Assembly (NCBI GenBank): GCA_963924555.1
Contig: OZ004589.1
Span: forward strand, 2,666,001-2,730,000
DNA length: 64,000 nt
Direction of reading: 5' to 3'
Source of the DNA: Crambe crambe
Lineage: Eukaryota > Porifera > Demospongiae > Poecilosclerida > Crambeidae
The notes under the pieces are model-generated. The model saw nothing but the letters and a program-made list of their open reading frames with translations. It was not told the origin of the DNA and made no database searches. Every line of letters begins with the position of its first letter. Position 1 is the first letter of the stretch. Shown piece by piece: positions 4,034 to 49,100 of this stretch. The position numbers and the translations under genes were made by a program.

Positions 4034-7000
4034 CTAACTGATAGTAGTATCACTGCTGTTGGTATAAAGTGTCTGCATGTCTTGATACATCAGCTTTCCG
4101 AAAGATAGTAATCCTCCCAGTTGTGCACATTGGGGATGCTTGCCCATCAAGTCCTGCGGGATGTTCAGAATAAGACTTTCAACTCCCGTCAAGTCATTCA
4201 CAAGGCTTGAAAAGGATGGACGTTGTGAAGTCTCTGGGTTCCTATAAAGAGTTGGGTATCATCATTAGCAATGTAGCTGTAGTAGAACCTTTCATGCAAT
4301 GTGGACATTTTAATTTATGGGGCATTAGTCCACCCATGGCCACTACAGCATCAGGATAGTCTGTGTGTCACATTTGGCAACCCTATATACCAGTGGTCAG
4401 CAGGACTATAGCTACAGACATCAGCTATTATTTCAGGGAGCTGGTTCCACTGTTTTGATATGGACTCACCAGGCTTGCATCATGAGTCCATAAATAACTT
4501 TTGGACAGCCAGGAGGTGGAGCAAGCCTCCTCCCAAGTTTCAAGGACTCTATCACCTGGAATGAAAATAGGACTGTTATACACCTCCATAATAATTATAC
4601 ATCGATCAATTTCAGCTTCGTAATAATAAATATAGCTACGTATGCGTAGGTGTTGAAATAATAATTATGGAGCCACTGCATGTATGTATACAAATCAAAT
4701 GTCAATGCTATGACATGTGTAGATTTGCCATGGATATCTCAATCTTCCTTGGTAGTAATGTTACTGTATTGCTAATCATCTGCATGGCTCTCACAATCAT
4801 GTTGCTTTCTCCTTCATATGGTTGTCTTCCCAAACTCCAGACTTCGTAGAGCAGACAGCCATAGCTCCACACATCACTGGCAGTGGAAAAATCGTTATAA
4901 TTTATAACCTCAGGGGCACTCCATTTCACTGGCACATCCAAGTCCCAAAAATTTTCATCAGATATGTCTTTGGAGAGGCTAAAGTCAGTGATCTGTTGGT
5001 AGAATACATAAGTGTAAAGTCAATGGTTGGGGGTATGGCCTATATCATACACATTTTGTATTGAGTAATATCCTCATTAGAATTAGAATGGTAAACTGGT
5101 AAAGTAAGATAATCTTTACAAACTCATATATAATAGCTAATTACCGTTACTTGTGTACAATTTATTTTCATCCTGAACTAGCTAGTTCTTTTAATTCATG
5201 TGTTGTCAATACTATTGCTGCTTCTGTGTGCTATCACTAAGTTACCACACATAGCTAGTGTCTATCTGAACTGACCTTACACACTTTCGTGTCTGAAACC
5301 ATTATGCTAGAGGCCATGATTTTCCCATGAACAATATTCTTGGTTGACAAATACTTCATTCCAAGTGCTATTTGTTGTGAGAAATTTAGAAGTAGTTTTG
5401 GTGTCCCCCTTGGTACAACAGCTTTAGGCCTATGACCAAAAAAAAAAAAGAAGTATTTTGATCATTGCTAGCTACATAATAAGAAAAACTTCATGGATCT
5501 ACTTTTTTTTGAAAGGTGATACATAACTTTACGTACATGCTAGCTATTACCCCCTACTTGTCACATGTACACATGTACACAACAAACCATACCATGAATT
5601 ATACTTTCCCACATGAATACTTAATTGTTATGTTATGATTAGCTAATAGCTTCTTACTTTGGTTTTATTGTCTGCAAGAATGATTTCAAATTACTGTGCA
5701 GTAGCTCTTCTATAATTGTAACCTACATCATATGAAAATGATTTATGTAATAGCTAGCTGATAATAATTAGCTACTGTATTTATGTATCAATGCTAGCTA
5801 CAGTGCATGGGACAGAACCTGATTTTAATCACAGCAGGTTATATTCATCATTTTTACTGTATTAAGTACTGGTTGCATCTTGTTTGGAAGTAAACTGAAT
5901 TACTAACTTGAAGTACAAGCTACGTAGGTGCATTTTGCTTTTACAGGATACACCTGGCTATCATTACATAGACTCCGTTATAACAACAGCCTTGTGTATC
6001 CCATAAAAATTAATTAAGAGAAATCCTGCATGGTTCCAAAGATATAATTATAGCTACATACTTGTACGAACTTAAAAAGGACAAAATTACACTTATCTAA
6101 TAAGAGCTATAATATTTACTTCTGAGATGTCATTGAGGATTCCATAAAAGAGAATAATATTGGGGTGCTTAAACTGGGCCATAGTGGCAGCTTCCTCCAG
6201 GAACTTCATCTTTTTTTCTGCTGAAGATTTTCTTAAGTGAACTTTCACCAGGTCTTCACCCTTTTTCCACACAGCTTTGCCAGGATTTTTTTTATCAATT
6301 CTACAGAATTATCAAATAGCTATAATCATGATAAAACCTCTTTAGCTAGACACTAGTAATTTAGCTAAGTCAATACAAAGGGTTGATATGGATTTCCAAG
6401 CACATGAACTTTATTCTACAAGGTCTTACGGATTGGAAATTGATGTATTCTCCCACTATAATCGAATCACATCTACAGTTATAGTACATCCAATGCCCAA
6501 GGGGTTGCTAGAAAAAAATTATGTAACCTTATACCAACTTACTCTATTTCACTGCGTTTCAAAGTATTGTTCTTGAGTTGCATATCAATTAATTTTTCAG
6601 TAGATGAAGGGAACTCATCACTGCCATGAAGTATCCGATCATCCTGTAAATAAAATTTAATGGCTGGGAGGAAAATAGCTAACCCCTTAGTGGTGAATAG
6701 TTCTCATTTCCTCACCCTTGCTAAAAGATCAGAGTAAACCACTCTAGTGGTGTCTATGCCATGAAATTCTTCATCTTTAGGTTTTTCTGAAACAGGCCAT
6801 TTGCTCTTGAACAAGCTGTTTGGTACTGTGTAGTTTCCAGACTGTGATAAGTTCTCTGGGCCAATGAAGTGAGGCTTTTTTGTACCTAGTTAATTACCAC
6901 AGAGAAAATTTTGTAGCATAGCTAACTAAATCCCTTTTAATTAATACAGTGGAACCAATATTAAGACCCTATTGACCTTGTAATGGGGACAACCTTTCTA

Positions 7001-9023: not shown

Positions 9024-12000
9024 TTAAAACACGTTGTCATCAGTAAGTTTAAGATCATCTTCTGCTAAGGAGATTTTTGTAATGGTGGTACTTTCACATA
9101 TAAAATCACTGATGTATTGCAAACCCAAAGAAGATATGTCATTTCCACCAAGTGCTAGCCTCGAAAGACCATTATTGAGTAAAACTGCACTAATCAAGGT
9201 ATTAATACCTTCATCTCCAAGATCATTATAGGACAGATCGAGTGCTCTCAAGGTTTCCATGGCCGGTATGCTAGCATGAATAGCAGTGAGTAATTCATCA
9301 CTCCAGCCCGTATAGCAATAGCCAAAGTCAATCTTTCTGAGCTTAGTCTTAGCACAAAGAGCAAGGAGAGTAGCCAAACCTTCATGAGTGATTTCATTTG
9401 AATTCAAAACAAGTGTGCGAAGAGTCAAATTACTCTGTAAAGCACTGGCAAGTAGGACTGCTCCTTCATCTGTGATCTCAGTTTGACTTGCATCAATATA
9501 TTGAAGACCAGAGTTTGTCGCTAGAACCTCTGCCAAAATCTGCATTCCAGCATCTCCAATTGCATTACCACCTATATCTATGTACTCCAAGGTGAGAATC
9601 TTCGCAATAACATTGGCAATGCTTTCAGCTGCTTCAAAAGAGAGATCATTTTGTGAGATATCGAGATGTGTCAAGTAATTATGCAGCGATAATTGCTGAA
9701 ATCCCCTGCCTGTAATTCCGTTGCGTGACAAATCCAAAAAGGTCAAAGAACGCAATCGCCTTAGAAATTCAGGAAAATTTGTGCTTTTCAGTAATTCATC
9801 AGATAATTTGTTATCACTGAGAGCTAGCTTTTGTAGGAATCGAAGAAATGGTAGCATTTTTATCAGCTCTTTGATACAGATTTCATCCATTTCATTTCCA
9901 TTCAAATAAAGTCTAGTAAGTTGACCAGAACTACCTTTCTTCAAAAAATGATGATTTAGCATAATGAAGTGATTGGTACTTAGATTACATTTCGTCATTC
10001 GAAGATGCCATTTACAACGGGACTTGGAATTAGCAATGATAAATCCTATGGCATTCACCTCATTAGGACTTAGTGATCTATCACTAAAAAACAAACGAGA
10101 ATCAAGACTGTCACAAATATGAGAACAGAGCGAGTGACACTGTGTTTCATACAGACACTTCAATGAAAATAAGATCTGCACCCTATCATCTTTGTATGAG
10201 TCAACTTCACCAATACGAGTAACACTTACACCACTCAAAGTTGTGCTAACACCTTCCAAACCACCAGTAGTAATTAAGATGTTATGACCAGTCAAGTTGT
10301 AGTCATCCAAATTCTTGAAAGTGACTATGGTACTAGATGGTGCAGCAACATCACTCGATGGAGTTGCTTCGCTATTAGGCATGGTAGAGAGAGAAGTAGA
10401 TGGAGGTGACGAGTCAATGTCAAGTTCATTAACTAGTGTTGTGGGATTTTGAAAAGATTCACTGATCGTAGTAGTAATATCAGTACCACAAAGCGAAATA
10501 GGTACATCTGAAATATCTTCATCTTCTTGAGGACCAAGTGTAGATGATTTCACAGTTCCTGGCATATCGAATAGTTGCTCATCATTATCAGAATCAAACT
10601 CACTATCATATGAATCATCATCTGAACTGCAATAGGAAAAGTTGTCATGAAATTTGCTGTCTGCATCAGCAGCTTCAGCAAGTCTGCTTTGTAGCATTTT
10701 GATAAATTTATTTCCAGATGGACTGTCCAATAATCCACAATAGAACTGCCAGACCATTTTGAAAGACATATTTGAGAAATGTCTTTGAATGACTATCTCT
10801 TGGTCTTCTCGATTCAAACTTGAAATGTAATTTGCAGCCATGAACTCTTGAAGAGTTGTATGCAAGAAGTGGAAGGTGGAAGATACACCATGAGAGTGGA
10901 AAACATTGACAGCTTGTAGTATGCCCAGATCATCCACATCAACTGTTACACTGTCAGATACTTTACAAACGGCTGCAATGTCATTTCGTGAATAGGTATA
11001 TTGATTAACTGCTATGCCATGATAAGAAAGTTTGCAAAGTGACAGATATAGGCTATTTGCTTCATTGGGTAGGTGGTCAAAATCAGGAGCATTTTTATAG
11101 AGTTCACTTCTCAGATCTACATTTCGAAGCAAACTGTTTTTAGCAAGAAGATCATAAAATCCAGTTAAAGTAGATGGCAGCTGTTGCTTACGAGAAAAGA
11201 CGTATGAAACGATAGAACAATTCATGGGAACATAGCAAATGCTCAATATATCAGGACGCTCACTCAATTTTTTTAAGAGACTCTTTTCTTCTTCAGGATT
11301 TTTGCTGAAACATTTATGAATATATTCATTAATGCAATCTTTTGAAAAGCCAAGAATGTCGATAGTGCGATTAAAGATACCATGGCGAAAGAGACCCTGT
11401 GAGGAAATGCTTCGAGATGTTACTACTACTGATGAAAAAGGCAGTTCTTTACCTTCAATTAGGTTGAGAAAAAAGCCAGAACTACGTGATTGAGTGAACT
11501 TTGCAGGAAGCTCATCCCAACCATCCAGAACGAACAGAACACCTTTACCACCTTCCCGTCGAACTTGTTTGACTACAGCTTCAGAAATTTCTCTGCTGTC
11601 ATGAAAGAATAAATCATCGATAGATGTGAAGGATTTAATGTGCGGATCTCGGAGAGCCCAGAAGATAACAATTTTGAACTGAGTAAACAGCTTACCAGCA
11701 GCCCACTTTTTACACAATGTCAGTGAAAACGCTGTTTTGCCAATACCAGGAGAACCTTGTACGAGTACAGAGTTGATAATCTCATCACCCTCACCAGGCT
11801 TAAATAGATCATTGAAATTGATGAGCTTATTGCTCACTCTATCAACATCACCTTTCAAGATTTTATTGATTTTTTTAGTAAGAATTTGTTCACTGTCGGG
11901 CTTATGCAATTCAGAAAGGGATAGGATCAGCGGCACATAATCTGAAGCTTGAACGGGAGGCCACTGACCATCTAGTGGCATTCGTAATCTTTTATATTTT

Positions 12001-14220
12001 TGCTTCAAGTATTTGCCATAGAGCTCGATTTCACCCTCAACTTCACTCTCAGTGCTGTAGTTTTCTGTAGGGAATGAGTAAGAATGTAATAAATACACTA
12101 AAAGTGCATGAGTAATTATTGGGGGTGAGCCTGAACAAGCCCCATGCATACTAGTGATTCCCATAATTATTAGCAAATTGGCCTTTCTGCAACAACCATA
12201 GGTATATCTATAACATACACATATGCGCCAAGAGCACCATTAATTTTAAATACATAAACCACACCACAACCATTGCCTTCAAAGACCAGGTGAGAGCTCT
12301 CAATAATTATATCAAATACATGAATCAAGCAATCACAATAAACATCTAACCACATCGATCAGGATCATCAGACTTGCCCCACGTGCAATGCAGAACTTTC
12401 CAGCTGGCCTACAGTGAGCTGGTATTCTGTGTGCGTCATCTTGGACTGGGCAGGCACAAAGTACTTATATCCCAGGGAGTATCCATATTAATGTCCTCTC
12501 AGCCTCCAGCTTTAAAATAGGATGCACTCCTCACATTTGGGTTATAGCTACACATTGAACACGGGTTTTAATGTTATTCATTGACCATATTCCTGATATT
12601 CATTGATCACATTCGAACCCCATGTAGGTCAGTGCGGCACCGATCATGGCACTGTGCCATCTTGGACTATCTGAGCTGCACTTGAGCTTTGTGCAGCAAA
12701 CAATGTATCACATGACACAATTATGCTACATGAATGTGTGGGTTTGCCTGACCATGATCCTACCTGGTTCAGAATCCATATTTGAGTCCTTCATTTTCTT
12801 GTGATTGGAATTACCTGTACCAAAAGAGAAGGATATGAAAGCTACTGAAGGCTGAGATGTGAGTAGTTGGCTCTTTCCAAAGCCAACAATTTGGCTCAGT
12901 ATGCCCACCACAATCTTGAATTGCTCAGGCTTGACAGATGGACACCCTAGCTGCTCAAACTTTCAATTATTTCAAGCTCCATTTAGCTAGAAACAAGTCC
13001 GGGCAATGAGACTTTTCATGTTTGGAATGCTTTTAATTTTAATACTGCAATCTGATTGGAGCACAACTATAGCTGCGCTGACACAAGTTCAATATAGCGA
13101 CTACACCAGACCCATTCCCTCCCCCACCGGGCCCCCAAGAAAAGGATTAGCTATGCCAGACTATTGTTTGACTAGGTAGCTAATGGGTTGGCTCACAAGA
13201 CTACCCACCACTAGCAATTATACTATAACTTACGATTAATCTGTCTTTCCATGTCCATTGCTATATGTCTCAACTGAGATACTTCTTTCAGGATACTTAG
13301 AAAGTGTTGGAAAACCTTCAGACTTTGAGAACTTTTAATGTGAGACTCTAAAGCATCCAAAGCTTTCTGTGCTTTGTCTCTGAAAGATATTCCTGGAGTG
13401 TTATTGACTGAATCCTTTAGTGCCTTTGGCAACATTTTAGCACTGTAGAATTCCGAGGTCAGTTTACTCAATGTAGCTGGCACAGACTAGTCTCTGTCCC
13501 AGCCCCCTAGCTCACAGCACTGGATGTATTGCATCACCAGCACGCGAGGAAGGGGTCTGGTGGTCGGGCTGCAGCGGTCACGGAACTGCGCCGGAATTCA
13601 GGCGCACCCAATGATTAGATTTCCACTTTACCACACATTAACTTTCGCGCGAAAAGGGGTGTGGTAGGTGAAACTTGATAAGAGGCCAGATGTCTGCAGT
13701 TCATTTTGAATCTCTTGAACTCGCTTTAACTCTTTATAGCATGGATGTTTGCAGATCCAGGGTCCACCACTAGCTATTGGAGAGATCATTGCAGGGTTTA
13801 TCCTTCCCTGGGAGATATACTTCTCTAGAACAGGTAGCACTTCCTTGTTAGCACTACTGTGGAGAACCCTGCGCTCTCTGTGATCAGTGAGCTCTTTCCC
13901 ACAGACCCTGCAAGAAAGCTGCCTCATTGCTGCTGCATGCAATAACTTTTTTCCCGCGGCAAAATGAACACGCATGCGCATAATTATTGAATTTAAGTAA
14001 ATTCCAAACATTCCTCAGTTCCGTGACCGCTGCAGCCCGACCACCAGACCCCTTCCTCGCGTGCTGGTGATGCAATACATCCAGTGCTGTGAGCTAGGGG
14101 GCTGGGACAGAGACTAGGCACAGACATTGCCTCCACTAGTCGGCTATAATTCTCTGTAATTAGTGAGACAATCAGCTGAAAGTCTTTCTCCGGTAGATGG
14201 AGACTAGCCATTGGGCTCAA
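9024..14220 (-). CDS. NLR-type receptor: CARD-like domain, NACHT, LRRs (first exon split by an insertion)
   Basis: Three exons: 14126-14220 plus 13234-13478 (one exon split by a mobile element), 12764-12814 and 9024-12064, with matching phase-1 joins (C|GT and G|AA). The first exon encodes a helical death-fold, most CARD-like, containing FYSAKMLPKALKDSV and FRDKAQKALDALESH. The large exon encodes NACHT with Walker A QGSPGIGKT and Walker B VLFVLDGWDELP, a helical region, an acidic Ser/Asp-rich linker (SSDDDSYDSEFDSDNDEQ) and at least eight leucine-rich repeats to the C-terminus. Such proteins are cytosolic pattern sensors that oligomerise through NACHT; sponge NLR families with this order are known. 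In this sequence the frame runs from exon 1 into a stop inside the element, so this allele is probably null unless the element is spliced or excised. Confidence 0.88.
13488..14116. mobile_element. 629-bp Mutator-like non-autonomous element in the NLR gene
   Basis: Two 101-bp terminal inverted repeats (13488-13588 and 14016-14116), apparently identical, begin TAGTCTCTGTCCCAGCCCCC. The element is flanked by a perfect 9-bp target duplication, GGCACAGAC (13479-13487 and 14117-14125). Long TIRs with 9-bp duplications are typical of the Mutator superfamily. It carries one small frame rather than a transposase. Confidence 0.9.
13628..13927 (-). CDS. Small zinc-binding (ZAD-like) protein inside the element
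   Basis: A 99-residue frame between the inverted repeats, taken from the ATG giving MRQLSCRVCGKELTDH. An upstream ATG at 14011 would extend it into the TIR-proximal region. It has a CRVC pair near the start and WICKHPCYKEL about 50 residues later, followed by a basic helical tail. The CxxC and CxxxC spacing resembles a zinc-finger-associated domain, a protein-protein or DNA-binding module. It is either cargo or a remnant of a transposase N-terminus; expression is unknown. Confidence 0.45.
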   Translation of the reverse strand: MRQLSCRVCGKELTDHRERRVLHSSANKEVLPVLEKYISQGRINPAMISPIASGGPWICKHPCYKELKRVQEIQNELQTSGLLSSFTYHTPFRAKVNVW

Positions 14221-30222: not shown

Positions 30223-32337
30223 ATGGCTGAAAATACCATAAAAAAACTGGAAGATCAGCTCAACTGTGCCATCTGCCTGGACACCTATACTGACCCTAAG
30301 CTACTCCAATGCTTCCATATCTACTGCAGAAAGTGTCTTGTGAAACTTGTGGTCCGAGACCAGCAGGGACAACTCTCCCTTACTTGCCCATCCTGTCGTC
30401 AGGCCACACCTGTTCCAGCTAATGGAGTAACAGGTCTCCAGTCAGCCTTTCAAGTCACCCCCCTCCTAGAGATCTTGGAAGATCACAAGAAGGCTAAAGA
30501 TACCGCAGATAGTAAAGAGGTGGTGAAAAGTGACGTGGCACACCCTATAACAAAGAATATTGCCAACTGCTTTGAACATAAAGACAAAGAGCGAGAGCTT
30601 TACTGTGAGACATGTGAGGACCTGATCTGTTATGAATGTGCCATTAAAGGAGGGAAGCATCACACTCATGATCACTATGTATTGGACAAAGCATTTGAGA
30701 GGTACAAGGGTGAGATTGCACCATCACTCGAGCCAATGGAGAGGAAATTGGTGGCTGTCAAAGAAGCACTTGCGCAGTTGGACAAGTGTTGTGGGGAAAT
30801 ATCTGTCCAACGAGAGGCTATTGATGCCAACATACACAGCACCTTCGGACGACTCCATGAAGTCCTGGACATCAGGAAGACAGAGCTTATCAGTCAATTG
30901 GATCAAATCACTCAGAGAAAGTTGAAAGAACTTGCAGTCCACAGGGACCAGATCGAAACCATCCAGGCCCAGCTGAGCAGCTGTCTGGACTTCATTAAGG
31001 AGAGCCTAAAGACAGACAATCAGGGGGAAGTGCTGATGATTAAGACAAACATAGTGAAGCAAGTGAAGGAACTGACTACACCTTTACAACCTGACGTAAA
31101 TGAGCCTATCGCTGAAGCAGACTTGAAATTTATAGCCCCTCAAGACATGACTAACAAGTGCCAAGATTATGGACAAGTATTCTCATCTGGATCTCCTGAT
31201 CCATTGAAATTCCAAGCCACAGGTAAAGGTTTGGAAGAAGCAGAGGTTGGGGAGAAGTCTACTGCTGTCATTCAAGCTTTTGATTATGGGGGGGAGCCAT
31301 TAATGAAGTCAATTGATTCGTTTCAGTGCGAGTTCATGTCTGAGATGACTGGTGTCACCGAGAGAGGCAATTTTGAATACAAAGGACTCAATGAATATGA
31401 AATCAGCTACCAGCCCACCATCAAGGGGAAACACCAGCTGAGCATTAAAGTTGCAGATGACCATATCCAGGGGAGTCCATTCATTGTAGTTGCAAAGCTG
31501 CCCCTTGAGAAGCTTGGCACTCCAATACTAACCATAAGTGGAGTGGATACACCAATAGGAGTGGCACTCAACCAGAGGGGAGAGGTGGTGGTAGCAGAAA
31601 GTGGTAAACATCGTATCTCCATTTTTAGTCCCAGTGGGGAGAGAATTCGATCAGTTGATACACGTACCATACGTACGACACCGTTTCAAACGCCCTGGGG
31701 TGTGGCAGTGGATGGTGAAGGTAATATTCTGGTGGCAGATTCTGACAATAATTGCATTCGGAAGTTCACTGAGAATGGTGACTGTCTCACAATAGTTGGC
31801 ACATTTGGTAAAAGATCTCTGCAGTTCTCTGAACCTCGTTTCATTGGACCTCGTTTCATTGGATTTAATACGATCAATCATAAAGTGTACGTTGCAGATA
31901 GTGGTAATCATCGTATCCAGATTCTGAACTCTGACCTCACTTTCCACAGTGCCTTTGGGAAGGAAGGTTGTGGCAAGGGACAGTTTGATGGTGTGCGTGG
32001 TATAGGCTTTGATAGCACTGGGAACGTTTATGTTGCTGATTATAATAACCATCGCATCCAAGTCTTCACAGCTGGTGGACGTTTCTTAAGGATGTTTGGG
32101 AAGCAGGGTGATGGTAGGGGGCAACTGAATTCTCCTATATACATTGCTATTGATGCTAATGATTTTGTGTATGTCAGTAAAGGTTGCCCTAATTATCACA
32201 TCTCTGTGTTCACCTGTGAGGGTCAGTTCGTAACATCATTTGGTCAAGACGGGAGTTTACCATGTGGGATAGTAGTAGACAGCAATGGATTGGTGTATGT
32301 GTGTGATCTACGTAATAATCGTATCCAACTATTTTAA
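30223..32337 (+). CDS. TRIM-NHL protein (RING, B-box, coiled coil, filamin, NHL)
   Basis: Intronless, 704 residues, start [19 protein letters not shown]3HC4 at about 15-60 (CAIC, CFHIYCRKC, CPSC); B-box 2 at about 110-150 ([22 protein letters not shown]); coiled coil about 155-280; filamin-type Ig domain about 330-425 (ending IQGSPFIV); then six NHL repeats with VADSDNNCIRKF and VADYNNHRIQVF cores forming a beta-propeller. Members of this family are E3 ubiquitin ligases or RNA-binding translational repressors. A 15-bp tandem duplication gives FIGPRFIG in NHL 3. The last NHL linker is shortened (FGQDGSLPCG), lacking the G-x-G-Q-F turn that the pseudogene copy still has. It could therefore be slightly altered but remains fully open. 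Confidence 0.93.
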   Translation: MAENTIKKLEDQLNCAICLDTYTDPKLLQCFHIYCRKCLVKLVVRDQQGQLSLTCPSCRQATPVPANGVTGLQSAFQVTPLLEILEDHKKAKDTADSKEVVKSDVAHPITKNIANCFEHKDKERELYCETCEDLICYECAIKGGKHHTHDHYVLDKAFERYKGEIAPSLEPMERKLVAVKEALAQLDKCCGEISVQREAIDANIHSTFGRLHEVLDIRKTELISQLDQITQRKLKELAVHRDQIETIQAQLSSCLDFIKESLKTDNQGEVLMIKTNIVKQVKELTTPLQPDVNEPIAEADLKFIAPQDMTNKCQDYGQVFSSGSPDPLKFQATGKGLEEAEVGEKSTAVIQAFDYGGEPLMKSIDSFQCEFMSEMTGVTERGNFEYKGLNEYEISYQPTIKGKHQLSIKVADDHIQGSPFIVVAKLPLEKLGTPILTISGVDTPIGVALNQRGEVVVAESGKHRISIFSPSGERIRSVDTRTIRTTPFQTPWGVAVDGEGNILVADSDNNCIRKFTENGDCLTIVGTFGKRSLQFSEPRFIGPRFIGFNTINHKVYVADSGNHRIQILNSDLTFHSAFGKEGCGKGQFDGVRGIGFDSTGNVYVADYNNHRIQVFTAGGRFLRMFGKQGDGRGQLNSPIYIAIDANDFVYVSKGCPNYHISVFTCEGQFVTSFGQDGSLPCGIVVDSNGLVYVCDLRNNRIQLF

Positions 32338-43100: not shown

Positions 43101-46100
43101 GAAGTCTGGAGCACATGCGCTAAAATGTCAGGTGTCAGGCTGTTATCATAAGCTTTGCTAGGTTTCATGCAGCGGAGGGAGAAGGGGAGAGATCCCCTTC
43201 TGATTAAAATCCCCCTCCCCACGCACCAATTATTGAATGTGTCTTAAAAATCTCTATATAGCACATCCTGGAAAGGAAAATATCTTCCCTTCCACAGTAC
43301 AGCTAAATGTACATAAAACAAACAGTCACAACTTTGCTTTGAATTTTAAGTGCACATGAAAATAATTAAAGTAACTTTTTTTTCTCACACAAGCACGCCC
43401 ATATGCATAGTCCCCCCCCCCCCCCCCCCCCCCATCCATCCAAATTCGATGTGTATGAAACCCTGTTACTGAATCAAAAGTCACCTCAAAGGTCTCACTA
43501 TCATTACTCACGAGTATGTATGTATGCTGCAAAGGGTTTGCTTGAGTATAAGGATGTATCTTACTTTTTGTAAAAGTATTTATCTTACCCATCATATGCA
43601 CCAGTAGCTAAGAGGTCTGGCTGGTATGGATGCCACTGGCAACACTGGACCTGTAGATGCAGAACACGGAGTACATATCATATAATGTAGCTATGCTGCA
43701 AACCCACAAAGTTATTATAGTAGACCTGTATCTTTGAACATGCAGCACTGAATGAGAATGAAGCCACCTCTCCCTTTGCTTTACTTTGTATGTCTGAGAG
43801 TAGAGGACTTTGTGCCATGCATGCCTCCTACTCCCTCACCCCATGCTTTACCTTGTCTGTATGTCTGAGAATGAAGAGGAGTTTTGGCCATGCCTCCCAC
43901 CCCTCCCCCTTTTGCTTTACCTTGTCTGTATGTCCGAGAGTGAGGAGTTTTGGCCATGCCTCCCACCCCTCCCCCTTTTGTTTTACCTTGTCTGTATGTC
44001 TGAGAGTTTGGCCACACCTCCCACCCTTTTGCTTTACTTTGTTTTGGACACACCTCCAACCCCTCCCCCTTTTGTTTTACCTTGTCTGTATGTCTGAGAG
44101 TTTGGCCATACCTCCCACCCCTTTCCCTTTTGCTTTACTTTGTTTTGGACACACCTCCAACCCCTCCCCCTTTTGTTTTACCTTGTCTGTATGTCTGAGA
44201 GTGAGGAGGAGTTTAGGCCACGCCATGTCCCACACCCGCACAGTGCAGTCGGCACTGGCACTGGCAAGGACGTTCCGAATGATCCTGTTCCAAGACAATC
44301 CTAACACTGCATCAGTGTGTCCCTCAATGGAAGTGGGTGTGGCTTTAGACTGAATGAGAGAAATACTCCATACAACTAGCAATTGTTCCTAGTTCAAAAT
44401 TCATGTTACAATAACTCCTACAATAACTTCTACAGCTTACACTAAACTTGAACACATTAATTTTTTGCTGAACATAATAATACCAAATACAATGATGTTC
44501 AACCAGTGTACAAGTAAGCACATACTGTTATTACCCAACAAGTAGATTGGAGTTGGTACCTGTGCCACATCAATCATCCATCCATATCAAAAGTACCAGG
44601 AAGGGGCTATAGCTATCCACTATTATTTTAACCTTGTGTATCAGCTAGGTATACCACTATTATTATTATGAACCTTGTGTTTCTTTTTCTTCTTTCCTTT
44701 TTCAAGTTTACTTTTTGCCTCTGCCACTGGAACGCCCGAGATTATAGTCTGATCTCCAAGACAAAATACTGGTTCCAAAACATCCACTGTGTCCAAGTCC
44801 CATACTTCAATAATAGGTGCCATGGTGCCGATGGCTATGTAGTTACCTGATGTGATGTGATGTGCGTACAGTACCAGAACATTTTTATACTTGAACATTG
44901 AGAAGGTGTGTGTGTGTGTGTGCGTGTGCACTTAAAGCCCAGAATGTCAAGGGCACAGTAGTATGGATGGCTTCAAGGTTCAAGGTGTGTGGGTGTGTGT
45001 GTGTGTGTGTGTGTGTGAAGGGGGGTCCCCTCAGAAAGGATGTTTTTATTCCCTTGATAATTGTATTGACAATACAATACCATATCAACTATTCTGCCAG
45101 GGCTCAACTATTTAGCCAGGGCTCAACTATTCTGCCAGGGCTATTGCATACTTCCCTGCTGTCATTATTGCATGTACTGCTATATGATCCAAGCTTCATT
45201 TTAATGGCTCTCCGACCAAATAACTATGCTTTGATGCATGCAGATATTAAAGCTTACACTAAGGGCAGCAGTAAGTTTTATTGCATTCACCCACAGCTGA
45301 TGTTTCAGATATAGAGGTGTCCTCAGATGAATAGTTCATACATGGGTTGCAACAGTCATGAATCCACACTTCATCTTTTTCTAAATAGGGTCACCCTACA
45401 CAAGTGGCTGGATTACCTAATTAGGTAAAGGGCTCCTAGAAATAGTCACCATATTATGCAGTACAACTAGCTAGTTAGCCCTGACAAAGTGCCTTTGTTG
45501 CAAGTTATGGCTGAAAATACCATCAAGAAATTGGAAGATCAACTCAATTGTGCCATCTGTCCCCAGTTGAAAAAACTAATCTACACCCTTGGGTCAGTAT
45601 AGGTGTCCAGCTGGGTGGTCTGGGGGCATGCTCCCCCCCCCCCGGGAAAATTTTGAATCTCAGGTGTTCTGAGATTGCTTCTGGTGTGATATAGGTGATT
45701 ATAATTATCACTATTCAAAAAGTACATGTTAGTCAATGAAAAACATGTACTGTACAAGCTCACATTAAACACTACAAGAACAAAACTGACCATTCCTTTG
45801 CAAATTGAGTTCATACTAAATATTTGGCAATAATTATAGCTCATTCTAATAATATACGATCCGTAAAATTCAAAAATTCTGGGGGGGCTTTGTGACCCTA
45901 AGCTACTCCAATGCTTCCACATCTACTGCAGGCAGTGCCTTGTGAAACTCGTGGTCAGAGACCAGCAGGGACAATTCTCCCTTACTTGCCCATCCTGTCG
46001 TCAGGCCACACCTGTTCCAGCCAATGGAGTGACAGGTCTCAAGCCAGCTTTTCAAGTCACCCCCCTCCTAGAGATCTTGGAAGATCACAAGAAGGCTAAA

Positions 46101-49100
46101 GATACAGCAGCCAGTAAAGACTTAGAGGGGGTGAAAACTGACGTGACACAACCCATTCCTTCAAAAAAGAAGACCATTGCCAACTGCTTTGAACATAAAG
46201 ATAAAGAGCGAGAGCTTTACTGTGAGACGTGTGAGGACCTGATCTGTTATGCATGTGCCATTAAAGGGAAGCATCACACTCATAATCACTATGTATTGGA
46301 TAGAGCATTTGAGAGGTACAAGGGTGAGATTGCACCATCACTCGAGCCAATGGAGGGGAAACTGGTGGCTGTCAAGGAAGCACTTGCACGGTTGGACATG
46401 CGTTGTGGGGAGATATCTGTCCAACGAGAAGCTACAGTGGATTGCAGTGATCTTGCAACATGAAATTCAGAACACCAAACCAAAATTTACATAGCTTCCT
46501 TTTAAGTAGCCCAACCCTAAAGCCACAATTAAGTCCTTTGAAAGGAGGCTATGTAAATTTTGGTTTGGTGTTCTGGATCTCATGTTGCAAGATTACTGCA
46601 ATCCACTATATCAATGCCAACATACACCATACCTTCAGACGACTCCATGAATTCCTGGACGTCAGGAAGACTAAACTTATTAGTCAATTGGATCGAATCA
46701 CTCAGAGGAAGTTGAAAGAACTTGCACTCCAGAGGGACCAGATTGAAACCATCCAAGCCCAGCTGAGCAGCTGTCTGGACTTCGTTAAGGAGACAGACAA
46801 TCAGGGAGAAGTGCTGATGATGAAGACAAACATAGTGAAGCAAGTAAAGGAACTGACTACACCTTTACAACCTGACGTAAGTGAGCCTATCGCTGAAGCA
46901 GACATGAAATTTATAGCCCTTCAAGACATGACCAACAACTGCCAAAATTATGGACAAGTATTCTCATCTGGATCTCCTGATCTATTGAAATGCCAAGCCA
47001 CAGGTAAGGGGTTGGAAGAAGCAGTGGTTGGGAAAAAGTCTACTGCTGTCCTTCAAGCTTTCGATTTTAGGGGGGAGCCATTAACGAAGTCAGTTGATTC
47101 ATTTCAGTGTGAGCTCATGTCTGAGATGACTGGTGTCACCGAGAGAGGCAATTTTGAATACAAAGGACTCAATGAATATGAAATCAGCTACCAGCCCACC
47201 ATCAAGGGGAAACACCAGCTGAGCATTAAAGTCACAAATGTCCACATTCAGGGGAGTCCATTAATTCTCTATAGTTGCAAAGCTGCCCCTTGAGAAGCTT
47301 GGCACTCCAATTCTAACTATCAATGAAGTGGATAGACCAATAGGAGTGGCACTCAACCAGAGGGGAGAGGTGGTGGTAGCGGAAAAAGATAAACTATGTG
47401 TCTCTACTTTTAGTCCCAGTGGGAAAGAATTCGATCATTTGATATATGTACCATACGGATGACTCTGTTTCAAGTGTCCTGGGGTGTGGCAGTGGATGGT
47501 GAAGGTAATATTCTGGTGGCAGATTCCAACAACAGTTGCATTCGGAAGTTCACTGAGAATGGTGACTGTCTCACAATAGTTGGCACATTTGGTAAAAGAT
47601 TTCTGCAGTTCTCTGAACCTCGTTTCATTGGATTTAATGTGATCAATGATAAAGTGTACGTTGCAGATAGTGGTAATCATCGTATCCAGATTCTGAACTC
47701 TGATCTCACTTTCCTCAGTGCCTTTGGGAAGGAAGGTTGTGGCAAGGGACAGTTTAAAGGTGTGCGTGGTATAGGCTTTGATAGTATTGGGAATATTTAC
47801 GTGGTGGATTATTACAACCATCGCATCCAAGTCTTCACAGCTGAGGGATATTTCTTGAGGATGTTTGGGAGGCAGGGTGATGGTAGGGGGCAACTGAGTT
47901 TGTCCTACAGATATTTCCATCGATGCTAATGATGTTGTCTATGTCAGTGAAGGTCGCCCTAATTATCGCATCTCTGTGTTCACCTCTGAGGGTCAGTTCG
48001 TGACATCATTTGGTAGAGAAGGGAGTGGACCAGGACAGTTTAAGTGTCCATATGGGATAGTAGTAGACGGCAATGGATTGGTGTATGTGTGTGATCTACA
48101 CAACAGTCGCATCCAAGTATTTTAAATGGATTATTTTGAACTTGTGTGTTGTACAAAACTACGATCATCCATTCTTATATTTTGTACGTACTTTGAACTT
48201 TGTACAAACTTTTATTCTTTTTTGTCATGCTTCCTAATCTTTTAGTCATATGAATTAACATCAGCAGGATTTTGCTTGAGGCCCAGTGAGGAGGGGCAAC
48301 TACAAACCAGTACATGTATGTGGAATTCTATGATAATCTCATTATGAAAGCTAGTTATTTAGGGAGGGGGGGGGGGGGGGGGGGGGGCAAAAGTCCCTGA
48401 TGATTGTTGCTCTCTTTACAGAAGTATAAACATAGATATGAGTTTGTCCTACTCACTTCCCCTTCCTGCTAGTGTGGGGGTCACTTCATATTTACAATCA
48501 TACTGTATTTCAGGGTTGATAAGCGCATGAGCCTATAAGTCTATCTAACAAGAAAATATGTGCCTATTAAAATTATTATGTGCCTATTTGCAAGGGAATT
48601 AAATGTGCATGTGCATTACAGGACCGCGTGCACCTGGTACAGATCAGCTTTACCGTTCAATGGCTGATGCTAGTTTTGTTCTGGAGAGCATTATTCGTGG
48701 ACATTGTGTGTACAAAAACATATGGACTCCAACTATAGGAGAAGCTCTAGGAGTTATGTGAGAACATGGCAACAGACACAATTATTTTGCTGTTTCTGTG
48801 ATGAAAGGCAGCACTATCATTGGACATGTTAATAAAAATTGTGCACCTAATATCGAAGTGCACTTATTAACCCAGAAATACGGTATTATATAAAGCTGTG
48901 TTATTACTGTATTAGATACCCTTTAGATGTGGTTGCTCGGGGTCATAGTCCAACCACTCGAGGGTTAGTGGGAAAGCAGTAAGTAGAATCTCATGGTGGC
49001 TGTAAGAGTGGTCGTCTCCTTCACTGAAAACTGAAAAGAAAGGTATAGAGGAAAAATTGTTCAGTCATGCTGACAGTATGAAAACCAACAGCATCAACAA

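Follow-up and report, generated by a model that had tools for sequence, protein, structure and literature searches.

We found that a 629-bp DNA element interrupts the probable first coding exon of a NACHT-LRR (NLR) gene of the sponge Crambe crambe, within a window of 64,000 nucleotides (C12:2666001-2730000 of the 143-Mb assembly, which comprises 119 contigs). The element is probably a non-autonomous cut-and-paste transposon, a deleted form of a longer element carrying a helicase and a DUF6589 protein and most likely assigned to AcademH, which entered coding exon 1 very recently. The features at the site are listed in Table 1.

Table 1. Features of the interrupted NLR gene and of the inserted element (positions in the window)
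Feature	Position	Strand	Basis
5' part of probable NLR coding exon 1 (28 codons + 2 bases, ATG 14211)	14126..14211	-	open frame, ATG
Target-site duplication copy GGCACAGAC	14117..14125	.	sequence
Non-autonomous DNA transposon, 629 bp, putatively AcademH-type, internal-deletion derivative of an L032-type element	13488..14116	.	
Terminal inverted repeat, 101 bp, perfect	14016..14116	.	repeat finder and sequence
127-codon frame, the start of the CxxC-bearing frame of the family, truncated by the internal deletion	13628..14011	-	
Terminal inverted repeat, 101 bp, perfect	13488..13588	.	repeat finder and sequence
Target-site duplication copy GGCACAGAC	13479..13487	.	sequence
3' part of NLR coding exon 1 (opens with the 9-bp duplication)	13234..13487	-	C20 relative
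Intron 1, donor GTAAGT 13233-13228, acceptor CAG ending 12065	12065..13233	-	rough splice scores: donor 2.05, acceptor 5.0
NLR exon 2, NACHT and leucine-rich repeats, 1012 codons and stop, no internal stop	9024..12064	-	

The inverted repeats at the two ends of the element and the 9-bp target-site duplication on both sides of it are perfect. The 101-bp repeats and the perfect duplication had been claimed in an earlier sequence-only reading of this DNA and were seen directly at the site. The boundary of the element was set by comparison with other copies of the family; the repeat finder itself reports arms of 102 bp (13487/14117), 1 bp beyond the true ends, because the outer bases of the duplication happen to pair. 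The insertion point is codon 29 of the exon. With the element present, the frame from ATG 14211 meets a stop codon inside the element, as had been stated earlier. When the flanks are joined with one copy of the duplication, 113 codons are open from ATG 14211 to 13235 and the phase then matches exon 2, which bears out the claim that removal of the element restores an open frame in the correct donor phase. Structure, frame, donor and phase all agree with the proposal that the element inserted cleanly into what is probably the first coding exon of this NLR. Searching the assembly with each flank separately, we found the filled site only and no empty site. In the whole window, a tRNA scan and an Rfam scan at gathering scores gave no matches.

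The host gene lies on the minus strand and was recognized as an NLR through its Pfam matches to NACHT (E 7.7e-23) and LRR_6 (E 3.3e-22). Genome-wide, 103 NACHT matches were scored among 232 candidates and all were over the cut-off; the same model gave signals in 11 of 14 control prokaryotes, in three of them over the cut-off. Exon 1 leaves one base before its donor and exon 2 gives the other two. The best-scoring acceptor ahead of exon 2 is CTACAG, with the exon starting at 12064, and the junction reads CAA then AAC TAC AGC in matching phase. The open run across the joined site is 123 codons long, and 95 of 5000 first-order Markov resamplings reached the same length, so the open frame by itself is moderate evidence. 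Within intron 1, a stretch of about 270 bp (12878-13146) has many copies of about 70-90% similarity across the genome and is an older repeat.

A relative of exon 1 was detected at C20:1367736-1367972 (E 0.0016, 29% identity, residues 28-112 of the joined protein); in L094 it reads as an open frame of 121 codons that begins with an ATG of its own. The whole of exon 1 scored 94 against this frame (shuffles 29.5) and the 3' part scored 91 (shuffles 27.9 +/- 5.0), with 0 of 2000 shuffles as high in each case, and the local alignment spans residues 15-112. The 5' 28 residues alone scored 24, which 442 of 2000 shuffles equalled. Since the C20 score comes from the 3' part, the 3' part is a real domain. 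For the first 28 codons, a coding role is probable because the frame is open, an ATG is present and the start of the relative has a similar length, rather than because of similarity. The C20 relative was also considered as proof that exon 1 was once continuous; this was dropped because the 5' 28 residues match it at chance level.

These results bear on an alternative that we regard as unlikely: exon 1, or its first 28 codons, may have been already lost or never used, with the product starting either within the 3' part or shortly ahead of exon 2. The insertion would then be nearly neutral, because the normal product would be a NACHT-LRR protein without this N-terminus. Such a start is available, as the frame of exon 2 is open upstream of its acceptor to 12176 and holds ATG codons, and in the sponges treated in PMC12909245 no class is commoner than NACHT-LRR genes that lack CARD and DEATH. 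The 5' 28 residues have no similarity of their own, and genome searches for a second NLR with exon 1 found none. However, apart from the insertion nothing disrupts the frame, donor or phase of exon 1, and its 3' part has the C20 relative, at a score that 0 of 2000 shuffles equalled. A point against the insertion into a used exon is that its donor scores only 2.05. We prefer the reading that a used coding exon was hit by a recent insertion.

The CARD-like domain that the sequence-only reading had placed in exon 1 found no support from any of five approaches, namely Pfam, a single-sequence fold, Foldseek, a PDB profile and alignments of NLR N-termini. Pfam CARD was sought in the window exon and in the C20 relative and was not found; the best Pfam match of the relative was FERM_F2 (E 0.00099), below the FERM_F2 cut-off. 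Folded from its single sequence, the 84-residue 3' part gave a helical but weak model (pLDDT 66), and Foldseek with this model gave nothing at 0.001, CARD9 being third at E 2.7. A two-sequence profile matched 0 chains of the PDB. When exon 1 was aligned to two other NLR N-termini, 696 of 1000 and 293 of 1000 shuffles scored as high. Judging from the model, exon 1 may encode an unclassified helical N-terminal domain.

The element belongs to a repeated family. A genome search with it gave at least 130 matches from 40 of 66 candidates, and family counts are lower bounds since only these 40 were scored. From 31 fetched places, 24 two-ended copies were tabulated; one-ended copies and copies with broken or rearranged ends (behind L014, L023, L026, L027, L034, L039 and L040) were left out. 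A perfect 9-bp duplication of varied sequence flanked 22 of the 24, the exceptions being L012 with an 8-bp duplication and L024 with none. L015 and L019 share both duplication and flanks, and the 22 perfect copies therefore represent 21 independent insertions.

Seven copies, 589-650 bp long, were compared for divergence. The window copy showed 0/629 substitutions against L002 (C9) and likewise against L004 (C5), while the aligned bases that differed were 3/629 for L003, 2/619 for L005, 7/616 for L006 and 3/578 for L007. The window copy is without a 10-bp and a 1-bp stretch that are present in the majority of the seven. Considering the perfect duplications of 22 of the 24 two-ended copies and the 0/629 substitutions, the family is young. 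The window insertion itself is very young because it has no substitution in 629 positions against copies elsewhere, and the suggestion of a recent event made from the letters of the window accords with this identity to two copies on other contigs. The insertion may be young enough to segregate.

Longer relatives indicate where the short element came from. L032 is 5156 bp long, is flanked by the duplication GTGCAAATG and has both ends in common with the window element; in the latter, L032 positions 152-345 are joined to 4877-5308, so that it is an internally deleted form. One strand of L032 encodes a RecQ-like helicase and the other a convergent DUF6589, and at the element end lies a CxxC frame, the start of which persists as the 127-codon frame of the window element; a Pfam scan of the 127-codon frame gave nothing at the cut-off. 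The frames of L032 are broken up by stops or introns. Because the window element is an internally deleted form of a helicase/DUF6589-carrying element, it was presumably mobilised in trans: the short copy would be moved by proteins of a full-length relative working on its 101-bp ends.

The same plan recurs in a second, diverged family. L091 is 5345 bp long, has 71-bp ends starting with TAGTCTC and the duplication CTGTACTGT, and contains one helicase match and DUF6589 matches in its interior. L090 (C5), in which the left tip is missing, matches it at 97.4% identity over 5315 aligned columns; the DUF6589 part of L090 is 41% identical to that of L032. A RecQ-like helicase was found in L032 and L090, and a matching helicase hit lies within L091. 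The pairing recurs throughout the genome: among the best 37 of 97 helicase matches, compared with 44 of 110 DUF6589 matches, 31 had a convergent DUF6589 match within 3 kb, where about 0.005 would be expected per helicase match, and one helicase match was also near a non-convergent DUF6589 match. The DUF6589 model gave no signal in any of 14 control genomes. These elements form a single DNA transposon lineage, marked by the helicase/DUF6589 pairing, by TAGTCTC ends that they share and by the 9-bp duplication. A PDB sequence search with the DUF6589 part of L032 returned nothing below E 0.1, and a literature search for DUF6589 gave no match. In these mobile elements, which make 9-bp duplications, DUF6589, a Pfam family without function, goes together with a RecQ-like helicase. 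This association hints at the role of DUF6589, which may be the Academ transposase. A second class of DUF6589 matches lies in frames as long as 1861 codons; the three of them that were compared had no convergent helicase partner.

For the naming of the lineage, the duplication and the helicase were considered together. AcademH DNA transposons (Kojima 2020, as cited in PMC10045372 and PMC10799480) are described in PMC10045372 as making 9- or 10-bp duplications, against 3 or 4 bp for AcademX, a difference that the paper relates to helicase and nuclease. The present elements resemble them in the 9-bp duplication (22 of 24 two-ended copies, and CTGTACTGT at L091), in the helicase of the full-length members, in the inverted ends and in the animal host, with two families of the same plan in one genome, whereas the window copy is only 629 bp long and holds no complete gene. 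KolobokH elements are likewise DNA transposons with a RecQ helicase, but Kolobok duplications are the TTAA-specific 4 bp according to PMC9587614, and the 9-bp duplications of varied sequence found here do not fit Kolobok or KolobokH. AcademH is the best name because the 9-bp duplication and the helicase both fit it while Kolobok makes TTAA duplications, and the lineage is most likely AcademH rather than Mutator or KolobokH.

A Mutator-like (MULE) identity was weighed on the same evidence and appears highly improbable. Non-autonomous MULEs share the 9-bp duplication and long inverted ends, which are perfect here, and maize Mu elements are described with ends of about 215 bp and 9-bp duplications. 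However, none of the ten frames scanned (6 of the 11 frames of L032 and 4 of the 7 of L033) matched a transposase model, whether MULE or other, and the helicase/DUF6589 pair recurs genome-wide and in the second TAGTCTC family with its 9-bp duplication.

Two nested elements were met among the fetched places. A gene of about 1100 residues in L033 was tried as the autonomous transposase of the family and rejected, since it belongs to a nested DNA transposon at L033 426-4024 (G000:C13, about 2909875-2913473) that has 34-bp ends of its own (GGCCACTACAACTTG...) and is flanked by a 3-bp TAA duplication. Three reading frames from this nested element matched no Pfam family above the cut-off; its middle frame has 117 matches genome-wide, 13 of them in frames of more than 1000 codons, and carries the motifs DDKH, TDGGPDH and NPVER, which by eye resemble a DDE transposase. 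The other nested element, L031 819-5527, is related to L034 and has a CCGG duplication; its inverted ends measure about 76 bp and are 97% alike, and no gene was identified in it.

As for the effect on the gene, a transcript from the native NLR start would read into the element and end there, and the interrupted allele most likely is without the normal N-terminal domain. The sequence-only reading had proposed a null allele, and the interrupted NLR may have this status; the allele need not be a full null, because translation could start at ATG 13435 or before exon 2. In that case a shortened product could arise, whether from ATG 13435 or from an ATG in the open stretch ahead of exon 2. The same in-frame ATG 13435, in the 3' part of exon 1, and the orientation of the 127-codon element frame, which is that of the NLR, would suit a different outcome, in which the element has become the source of a promoter or an exon and the receptor is chimeric or changed at its N-terminus. 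Rough splice scores speak against this outcome, which we hold improbable: all seven phase-1 donors in the element's own frame scored -2.8 or less, and the best of 96 in-frame splices that skip the element reached -0.7 summed. By these scores, no good splice passes around the element.

The earlier description of the insertion as reversible-looking fits the frame, which is kept by an excision that leaves either one or both 9-bp copies; both copies would add Ser-Val-Pro. Since the 9-bp duplication is exactly three codons, a footprint could stay in frame. We might speculate, though the chance is slim, that an active AcademH system inserts into receptor genes, and that its excisions can leave in-frame three-codon footprints (here a repeated Ser-Val-Pro), so that receptors are switched off and on with small changes.

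More than 100 NACHT proteins were reported in each of 11 sponges (PMC12909245), and the 103 matches in this genome likewise reveal many NACHT genes. In difference from the present case, the strings 'transpos' and 'pseudogen' occur 0 times in the main text of PMC12909245. A general literature search for transposon insertions in NLR genes gave nothing on point among the matches listed. A transposon insertion in an NLR exon is an ordinary kind of event, here unusually fresh, and it offers a ready presence/absence typing marker for an immune receptor in a large animal NLR family.

Elsewhere in the window, an intact frame with RING, B-box, filamin and NHL parts (TRIM-NHL type) was found at 30223-32337. 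About 14 kb from it, at 45942-47929, there are shorter frames that by eye look like a broken copy.
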